Source: Bacteroidales bacterium
GTDB taxonomy: Bacteria > Bacteroidota > Bacteroidia > Bacteroidales > JAIPAP01
Assembly: GCA_021740045.1 (NCBI GenBank)
Contig: JAIPAP010000032.1
Span: 1 to 38,571, forward strand
Direction of reading: 5' to 3'
DNA length: 38,571 nt
The notes under the pieces are model-generated. The model saw only the letters and a program-made list of their open reading frames with translations. It was not told where the DNA came from and made no database searches. Positions 2,508 through 14,178 of the stretch are shown piece by piece. The first letter of the stretch is position 1; every line of letters starts with the position of its first letter. A program made the translations under genes and the position numbers.

Positions 2508-2582
2508 AGCATTAGCAGATTACCTTATTCAAAAATAGAACAAATTTCTTGAAAAAGTATTATATGCTTTAGTTAAAGAATA

Positions 2583-2612
2583 ACCCTCAAAATTCACGTG
2601 AATTTTGCGGGT
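2583..2612. promoter_or_regulatory. 30-bp palindrome upstream of the DUF4143 gene relic
   Basis: The two 15-base arms (ACCCTCAAAATTCAC and GTGAATTTTGCGGGT) are reverse complements with a single mismatch. The central 18 bp, 2589-2606, are a perfect palindrome around CACGTG. It has no loop, so it looks like a dimer-binding operator rather than a terminator. It sits between the divergent mntA gene and the DUF4143 relic, 44 bases before the relic's ATG, over the place where a -33 box would be. The binding protein is unknown. Confidence 0.6.
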
Positions 2613-2639
2613 ATAGCAGCAATATTTGCGTTATATTTG
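2604..2639 (+). promoter_or_regulatory. Possible promoter of the DUF4143 gene relic
   Basis: TATATTTG at 2632-2639 matches the -7 box consensus TAnnTTTG. A TTTG at 2604-2607 could be the -33 box, but the spacer of 24 is longer than the usual 19-21. The upstream box lies inside the right arm of the palindrome, which would fit repression by an operator-bound protein. Confidence 0.35.
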
Positions 2640-2656: not shown

Positions 2657-2852
2657 ATGAATATACAAAGAGACCTTAAAACGCAAATAATCAGCCGATA
2701 ATATTGAAGAAACCCGTGGGCGGCTTTGGGCTTATGAATTAAAATACAACATGAAAAAAGTAAAACCTCCAAAGACCTGGCTTGAAGCCTATCCTGAAAG
2801 CACTTTCAAGGTGATTAATAAAGACAATTACGATGAGTTTTTGATGGGATAA
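2657..2852 (+). pseudogene. Internally deleted AAA_14/DUF4143 ATPase gene (both ends remain)
   Basis: From the ATG at 2657 the frame reads MNIQRDLKTQIISR and stops at 2701. In the frame one base on, starting near 2697, it continues DNIEETRGRLWAYELKYN, then KTWLEAYPESTFKVIN and stops at 2852. The first piece is the typical N-terminus of an AAA_14/DUF4143 ATPase just before its Walker A region. The second is the typical C-terminus of the same family. Full members are roughly 370-420 residues, so about 85% of the gene, including all ATPase motifs, is missing and the junction is out of frame. An internal ATG at 2751 leaves a 33-codon ORF. A functional product is unlikely. Confidence 0.7.
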
Positions 2853-8411: not shown

Positions 8412-8861
8412 TTGAATAAAATTCGACTTACCAAAGAATTCAAATTTGAAATGGCTCATGCCCTCAAGGGCTATAATGGGCCTTGCCAAAGCATACACGG
8501 ACATTCTTACGAGTTATGGGTTACCGTTATCGGTAAACCCAATGATGATCCAAATTCCCCGGATTACGGGATGATCATGGATTTTAAGAAGTTAAAGGAG
8601 ATCGTCAGGGAAAATTTTATTAATGATTATGATCACAGTCTAGTGCTTCCCGACAGTGTTTCGCAGGAAAATATTGATGCCATGGGTGAGTTGGCCGAAA
8701 GGTTGATTGTAGTCCCCTGGCAGCCCACTACCGAGAACCTGCTTACCGAGATCGTAAGAAGGGTAGGGGACAAGCTTCCTGAAGGTGTATCGCTTCATAG
8801 CCTGAAAATCCAGGAAACGGTTACCTCTTATGCCGAGTGGCATGCGACGGATAATGAATAA
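8412..8861 (+). CDS. queD: 6-carboxy-5,6,7,8-tetrahydropterin synthase
   Basis: QueD converts 7,8-dihydroneopterin triphosphate to 6-carboxytetrahydropterin in queuosine and preQ1 synthesis. The 149-residue protein shows the zinc histidines H16, H29 and H31 (FEMAHAL; SIHGHSY), catalytic C25 (GPC), D72 and H75 in the DYDHS motif and the pterin-binding glutamate region TTENL, with E135 near the end. The start must be the TTG at 8412: a stop codon lies two codons upstream and the next ATG would remove the start of the first strand. It lies 12 bases after the endonuclease gene. Confidence 0.93.
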   Translation: MNKIRLTKEFKFEMAHALKGYNGPCQSIHGHSYELWVTVIGKPNDDPNSPDYGMIMDFKKLKEIVRENFINDYDHSLVLPDSVSQENIDAMGELAERLIVVPWQPTTENLLTEIVRRVGDKLPEGVSLHSLKIQETVTSYAEWHATDNE

Positions 8862-8896
8862 ATCGCTTTGCGCTCGGTGCCGAGCGCAAAGCGATT
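8861..8896. terminator. Perfect hairpin between convergent queD and fhs
   Basis: Arms AATCGCTTTGCGCTCGG (8861-8877) and CCGAGCGCAAAGCGATT (8880-8896) are exact reverse complements. They start at the queD stop codon and end six bases from the fhs stop. Neither side has a T-tract, so it may serve as an RNA 3'-end stabiliser rather than a classical terminator. Confidence 0.65.
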
Positions 8897-14080: not shown

Positions 14081-14114
14081 AAAAAAGCGAAATGGGAACC
14101 AGGTCCCATTTCGC
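14081..14114 (-). terminator. Terminator of the efflux operon
   Basis: On the - strand an 11-bp perfect stem (arms GCGAAATGGGA and TCCCATTTCGC, six-base loop) is followed by TTTTTT. It lies 65 bases after the stop of the RND gene and upstream of the kinase gene, so it closes the operon. Confidence 0.85.
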
Positions 14115-14178
14115 CTTTTAACAGCTTCTTTTTTTAAAAACACATTACAGCTATTGAATTTTCCATACTTCATGGGCT

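Follow-up and report, generated by a model that had tools for sequence, protein, structure and literature searches.

What is a large, almost perfect palindrome for when the gene behind it is dead? The question is raised by the window, meaning the whole 38,571-nucleotide stretch of a Bacteroidales contig analysed here, in which an earlier note had described such a repeat before a DUF4143 relic, suggesting that it might be the operator of these ATPases or a recombination site linked to their turnover. The palindrome is probably an operator that has outlasted its deleted PDC-S01/DUF4143 gene. The relic is by itself ordinary, and the result worth following is the family-wide occurrence of gene-specific, phased operators.

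The palindrome and its promoter setting

The features of the locus are collected in Table 1. The two arms of the palindrome (2583-2597 and 2598-2612) are 15 nt each and pair at 14 of 15 positions (93%) with 0 nt between them, bearing out the loopless 30-bp inverted repeat with one mismatch of the earlier note, and the 18-bp core AAAATTCACGTGAATTTT is perfect. When the 110 nt preceding the relic ATG (2657) were shuffled 2000 times with dinucleotides preserved, the palindrome score of 12.5 was reached once. Three other sites in the whole window have an equal or higher score (1735-1774, 8861-8896 and 14082-14119), the first two of which, each lying just 3′ of a gene, look to us like terminators.

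Table 1. Features of the palindrome locus, numbered as in the window
Feature	Positions	Strand	Basis and remarks
30-bp inverted repeat, arms ACCCTCAAAATTCAC and GTGAATTTTGCGGGT	2583-2612	none	Repeat search; perfect 18-bp core at 2589-2606
TTTGCG half-site in right palindrome arm	2604-2609	+	Sequence; in 3 of 4 aligned copies, TTTGTG in L332
Second TTTGCG half-site, 21 bp onward	2625-2630	+	In 4 of 4 aligned copies; distance identical in L132
-7 box TATATTTG	2632-2639	+	Fits Bacteroidota -7 consensus TAnnTTTG; 19 bp past palindrome
53-bp conserved putative operator (palindrome plus third TTTGCG half-site on the right)	2581-2633	+	Four-copy alignment
N-terminal remnant, MNIQRDLKTQIISR then stop	2657-2701	+	Sequence; L132 residues 3-16 top-ranked, 57%, E 0.44
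C-terminal remnant, different frame, stop included	2721-2852	+	Protein comparison; about 43 residues
MNT (NTP_transf_2/Polbeta) and HepT-like HEPN pair beside relic	1826-2507	minus	Domain matches

The -7 box follows the consensus given for Bacteroidota in the accessible text of PMC7366714. Counted from this box, position -33 falls close to where the palindrome ends on the right, and as far as position goes the repeat does lie over the -33 region as had been claimed. The usual spacing between TTTG and the -7 box is 19 nt; no TTTG was found at that spacing, the nearest (2604-2607) ending 24 nt before the box. That the repeat works on the transcript as an RNA hairpin or terminator is scarcely credible; while inverted repeats are able to form hairpins, this one stands before the -7 box and so would not be transcribed with the gene if transcription depends on that box, the genes on either side read away from it, and many members of the family have direct repeats rather than hairpins.

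The DUF4143 relic

Two remnants are left of the gene. The C-terminal frame (2721-2849) is up to 65% identical to DUF4143 C-termini and L132, an intact relative, heads the matches to the 14 N-terminal codons at 57%, with a query so short that E = 0.44; the earlier identification of a DUF4143 relic was thereby upheld. Compared with L132 about 323 codons are gone, and no Pfam match was obtained to the 47-aa fragment of the relic alone. The combination of AAA_14 and DUF4143 in one protein, absent from the relic in the window, was found in the intact relatives L132, L061 and L001. Three more DUF4143 fragments in frames of 75-106 aa lie in the same genome among its 8 matches (L004, L005 and L007 on contigs C69, C68 and C137), and turnover seems high as judged from them. 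Relics formed by internal deletion, with the promoter or N-terminus and the C-terminus kept, recur at L135, L143 and in the window (2657-2852); at L135 about 14 N-terminal codons stand shortly before the C-terminus, and at L143 a promoter palindrome is followed by a C-terminal frame of 54 aa.

The core does not recur before DUF4143 genes in general

The earlier note had proposed that the 18-bp core be looked for upstream of DUF4143 genes in Bacteroidota and elsewhere in this genome. With up to 3 mismatches allowed, the 3.9-Mb assembly had no second site with 0 or 1 mismatch and 10 further sites with 2-3 mismatches (3 for a control pattern), 7 of which lie inside open frames of at least 100 aa and one of which is L016, the promoter of an intact paralogue, L001. 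At up to 1 mismatch the 18-mer was present in 5 other genomes among 296 of the phylum, compared with 7 for the reversed control pattern, and no DUF4143 was detected in these five 3-kb loci by tblastn with one DUF4143 query protein. In about 85,000 genomes a 14-bp core followed by the -7 box was found at 16 loci. With nine query proteins, tblastn detected DUF4143 at one of them only, L061, a Flavobacteriales MAG in which the core site lies between two divergent DUF4143 genes. The core was therefore nearly absent from the positions at which it had been predicted, refuting the expectation in its own terms, and it was ruled out as a general DUF4143 motif by the 296-genome search and the scan of about 85,000 genomes. 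The core AATTCACGTGAATT also precedes -7-like boxes at the Bacteroidota-type loci L055, L057 and L066, with GTGAAAAATTCACGTGAATTTTTCAC common to L057 and L066.

The same protein lineage has the same putative operator

A search with the C-terminus of the relic matched 97 of 247 genomes of the order, own genome included, and it was in this way, rather than via the palindrome, that L132 was retrieved. When 204 full-length DUF4143 genes are compared, L132 comes first at both ends of the relic, with 53.7% identity to its C-terminus; the C-terminus of L131 is better still (65%) and, being an open frame without the N-terminus, L131 falls outside the 204. The sequence upstream of L132 is likewise the best match to the putative window operator, with a score of 30.5 against 16.5 and 14 for the next genes and 13.5 for the best of 522 control upstreams.

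The conservation of this sequence among near relatives extends over 53 bp (2581-2633), which are 90.6% identical to a second copy at L132 situated 62 bp past the stop and 84.9% identical to a solo copy, L332, in the sister genome G308, where the DUF4143 gene is missing at the L132 site and one copy has been kept. The predicted operator is common to the relatives L132 and L332, with only the core being found at L061. Among control genes, in a small sample, upstream conservation was seen in 0 of 9 pairs at 45-60% identity and 2 of 6 at 60-80%. What the window holds is a conserved putative operator upstream of a gene of the same lineage, and the proposal that the palindrome is the operator of these ATPases survives in this lineage-specific form, with conservation in L132 and L332 (and of the core in L061); it fails as a statement about the other DUF4143 genes, which lack the core and bear differently spelled repeats. 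A chance palindrome, or a functionally unrelated one that happens to precede the relic, might be suspected from the gene being dead and from the rarity of the core elsewhere (5 other genomes in 296, 7 with the reversed control pattern), but is highly improbable given its conservation upstream of the nearest intact relative, in the downstream copy and in the sister genome and the 1 shuffle in 2000 that was as good.

The palindrome might belong instead to the neighbouring minus-strand MNT/HEPN pair, as the distance from the palindrome to the MNT start on its left is 76 bp (TTG) or 114 bp (ATG) and the operators of L132 and L332 also adjoin an MNT gene. In both L132 and L332, however, it is the 3′ end of the MNT gene that faces the operator, which cannot therefore be the MNT promoter there, and of 120 long DUF4143 loci one contained relatives of the MNT or HEPN of the window (a lower bound, from single-sequence phmmer searches) while promoter repeats are frequent without them. 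Ownership by this pair is accordingly very doubtful. As a regular partner of DUF4143 genes MNT/HEPN is unsupported, at 1 of 120 long loci.

Promoter repeats are a property of the family

Repeats, inverted or direct, with a score of at least 10 within 110 nt of the gene start were counted upstream of DUF4143 genes, with gene starts set by rule and unmapped. The first set comprised 98 loci from the own genome, 40 order-level relatives and L061, taken in order from among the Pfam matches listed, in which 100 full-length open reading frames gave 94 distinct genes, two of them from L061, a locus found through the core. A repeat was present at 63 of 94 DUF4143 genes and at 46 of 231 control genes of the same loci (Fisher 1e-15), the other baselines being 37 of 126 GC-matched controls (2e-8) and 65 of 470 shuffles. 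The excess recurred in a second set from outside the order (90 loci, 93 genes), for which thresholds and protein model were fixed, with 70 of 93 against 31 of 291 controls (4e-32) and 12 of 465 shuffles, and was also observed in a second phylum, that of the Traorella MAG G544, with 18 of 27 against 6 of 33 controls (2e-4) and 15 of 135 shuffles. Shuffled upstream sequences that are AT-rich also pass the threshold, at 14% in the first set and 11% in the third, and about one third of the DUF4143 genes have no repeat over threshold. Averaged over 133 clusters at 60% identity (204 genes) the repeat fraction was 0.70. As read from these sequences, most of the DUF4143 genes sampled bear putative promoter repeats of their own, differently spelled from gene to gene.

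Members of the family were present in searches of phage (17 records) and plasmid (550 records) sequences, all below 60% identity. Repeats were found at 5 of 10 named plasmid copies, picked for variety from the 30 matches listed, examples being a 32-bp repeat in Treponema saccharophilum pTS1 and a 20+20 palindrome in Spirosoma linguale pSLIN02; the plasmid copy of Thermus thermophilus HB8 had no repeat over threshold. In pSLIN02 (L299) the gene is Slin_6960, a DUF4143-family relative annotated as an ArsR-family regulator, and the 20+20 palindrome is perfect and abuts the start codon.

Many repeats are phased and lie over the promoter

Phasing was scored as at least 13 identities in a 16-nt window at a given lag. 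In the first set lag 32 was observed at 24 of 94 genes and lag 33 at 11 of 94, compared with 2 and 1 of 226 controls, and in the second set lag 32/33 was found at 27 of 93 genes against 2 of 291 controls. In the second phylum the dominant lag was 23 (10 of 27 genes, 0 of 33 controls). The lag follows protein length, with proteins of 340-381 aa having lag 32/33 in 45 of 75 and lag 22/23 in none, and those of 400-419 aa having lag 22/23 in 12 of 33 and lag 32/33 in 7 of 33. The -33 and -7 elements of a promoter would themselves produce a lag of 27, at which there was no excess in the first set (0 of 94). In the window the best match at lag 32 is 11 of 16 identities, under the 13 used elsewhere, with the TTTGCG half-site recurring at 21 bp.

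A recognisable -7 box was found at 95 of 204 genes. Of these, 74 also have a repeat, which in 60 cases covers part or all of the -33 to -7 stretch, and the repeat thus most likely acts as DNA and not as part of the transcript. The repeat in the window has this same position at the -33 to -7 stretch.

Which protein may read the repeats

Up to 29 DUF4143 matches occur in one genome, among the matches listed. For pairs of genes in the same genome, in eight genomes, an upstream similarity of 14 was reached by 10 of 202 (3 when shuffled), and was strong only in L099/L100. With many paralogues in each genome and operators that mostly differ, a one-to-one regulator would most simply be the gene product itself. 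In keeping with this, operator similarity (score of at least 12) rises with protein identity, from 5% of pairs at 40-45% identity to 18.5% at 50-60% and 60% above, over a shuffled baseline of about 2-3%, pairs below 40% identity being represented by a 15% sample.

A logistic fit to 3362 pairs linked operator similarity most closely with identity in the winged-helix region (weight 0.55, gene-resampled range 0.32-0.86), followed by the AAA/ATPase part (0.41, 0.18-0.65), with the nuclease-like domain at -0.01; gene pairs in this fit are non-independent, and at 44-56% identity the difference in the winged helix amounts to just some 2 points. Residues 202-249 of L132 and L001 gave Pfam matches of the helix-turn-helix type, all below the cut-off (HTH_11 at 3e-4 to 5e-4, MarR_2 at 2e-3 and GntR at 9e-3), and in the L061 protein a helix-helix-wing was modelled by AlphaFold at 217-266 (mean pLDDT 73, pTM 0.53, wing about 49-70). 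We read the repeats as predicted binding sites of each gene's own product, which would then be autoregulated.

Expression of one family member has been described in Thermus thermophilus HB27, where TT_P0211 is listed with AAA 14, DUF4143 and HTH motifs (PMC4406477, Table 1). TT_P0211 was up 6.6-fold only when plasmid and Argonaute were both present, a result that is suggestive only, as given in the available portion of that paper (PMC4406477).

Extra operator copies and gene turnover

Some predicted operators are duplicated near the gene. When units very rich in one base were excluded, 144 DUF4143 repeats could be tested, 15 of which had a further copy (score of at least 18) within 1 kb of the gene compared with 2 of 73 control repeats; at a score of at least 14 the figures were 19 and 2, and for shuffled units there were no copies near the gene (0 of 144) and 4 at other positions. 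L132 lies between two 51-bp direct copies (400-450 and 1675-1725) that are 92% identical, and at the corresponding site of G308 there is no gene and one copy (L332, 974-1030). At L041 and L155 two copies precede the gene and two more adjoin its stop codon, while L163 has one on each side and its site is empty in two sister genomes.

These arrangements could mean that the repeat is primarily an element end or recombination site, with DUF4143 cassettes gained and lost together with flanking copies and the overlap with the promoter being secondary; deletion between flanking copies would then leave a solo repeat. The excess is, however, modest (Fisher 0.036 for 15 against 2), becoming 0.094 for 12 of 144 when one of the near-identical twins L170/L171 and two doubtful cases (L042 and L182, perhaps a terminator and a simple repeat) are dropped, and copies elsewhere were found for control repeats at 5 of 73 loci. 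No nearby copy accompanies 129 of the 144 repeats, that of the window is single, and both empty L163 sites are without any operator. In G308 the match to the left flank of L132 ends about 225 bp before the operator, and simple deletion between copies is thus no explanation there. As position over the promoter and phasing suit an operator better, a primary role in recombination is unlikely. The suggestion of a recombination site linked to turnover is weakly supported by the nearby copies (15 of 144 against 2 of 73, Fisher 0.036) and by the operator without a gene in the sister genome, and is contradicted at the two other empty sites, which carry no operator.

An operator copy 400-500 bp upstream was also found at L205, L207, L240 and L242, with no DUF4143 remnant between copy and gene detected by blastx at L205, L240 and L242, and the empty-site search at L221 returned many short repeat matches. 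At L204 (2781-3360) three tandem units of about 170 bp, each with an operator, stand before a DUF4143 gene. Control of the promoter does not by itself account for operator copies that lie away from it, and the presence of copies on both sides of genes or near them indicates that the repeats may also be cassette boundaries.

Relation to known systems

In PADLOC the family is PDC-S01, with matches of 4e-145 for L132, 2e-150 for L061 and 3e-138 for L001; it is thus the relatives of the relic that match the family model, the window copy itself being only a relic. PADLOC labels PDC-S01 an uncharacterised phage-defence candidate. According to the part of PMC12988326 that was available, S01 is an ATPase fused to a member of the PD-(D/E)XK superfamily and ranks fourth in frequency among the defences of prokaryotes, most PDCs still awaiting validation. 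Among individual loci counted in the rumen, PDC-S01 came first (PMC13356809, in excerpt). In those portions of the open-access literature that the search covered, no report of operators or autoregulation of PDC-S01 was found.

The structure of the L061 protein, for which sequence search found no solved structure, was compared as a model. Foldseek ranked SSO1545 (PDB 2fna) first (E 2.4e-8), and a second aligner matched PAB2304 (2qen) with Z 12.4 over 212 residues at an rmsd of 12.6; both 2fna and 2qen combine an ATPase with a winged helix. The SSO1545-like archaeal AAA+ ATPases, together with Cdc6/Orc1, are among the closest known systems, although TM-scores are low (0.27-0.28) at 15-19% identity and an AVAST5 filament (Z 12.9) and TnsC (12.7) tie within 1 Z. 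Such low TM-scores and ties among ATPases establish the ATPase fold and little more, and a profile search with L061 gave matches to ATPase domains and other nucleotide-binding proteins (best 60 of 83).

Repressors that regulate themselves through iterated palindromic or direct-repeat operators are familiar from toxin-antitoxin and plasmid partition promoters. The likeness lies in sites that cover the promoter, phasing by helical turns and an operator matched to its protein. The repressor in those systems is, however, a separate small protein, whereas the DUF4143 sites are presumably bound by one ATPase-nuclease-like protein, and unlike theirs the DUF4143 operators diversify among many paralogues. 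IniR, of the STAND/MalT type, likewise joins an ATPase to a DNA-binding domain, and its ATPase domain has also been likened to SSO1545 (PMC5760070, in excerpt); IniR differs in having a MalT-like sensor and a LuxR-like DNA-binding domain and in regulating other genes.

A model for the family and its meaning

On the most likely reading, the palindrome is the operator of a gene that encoded an AAA_14 ATPase with a winged-helix region and a PD-(D/E)XK-like domain and was later destroyed by an internal deletion. Its own product would have bound the palindrome via the winged-helix region and, as the sites cover the -33 to -7 promoter, would most likely have acted as a repressor of its own gene, to be released perhaps by ATP binding or a signal from an invader. 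Each DUF4143 lineage would have its own operator, often made up of at least two sites spaced by some two to three helical turns, and many members of the family could thereby share one genome with presumably little cross-talk between paralogues.

A further reading, which we regard as quite improbable, is that specificity throughout the system is set by the gene-specific repeat. A PDC-S01 ATPase-nuclease would then recognise its own iterated site, which would be operator and cassette boundary at home and trigger or target elsewhere, on a rival element or an invading copy. Were this true, each copy would be a self-labelled, mutually orthogonal module, and the many paralogues per genome, the flanking copies, the solo operators and the frequent relics would all be explained.

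With the repeats taken as operators of the genes that they precede, the finding bears on a family reportedly among the commonest defence candidates of prokaryotes, for which no tested mechanism was found in the literature searched, as far as its accessible text goes. The repeats would supply a predicted DNA ligand, readable from the genome, for many PDC-S01 members, making binding, autoregulation and specificity testable on many natural pairs of protein and site that are perhaps orthogonal. In annotation, such repeats would mark the promoters of lost copies, that of the window included.
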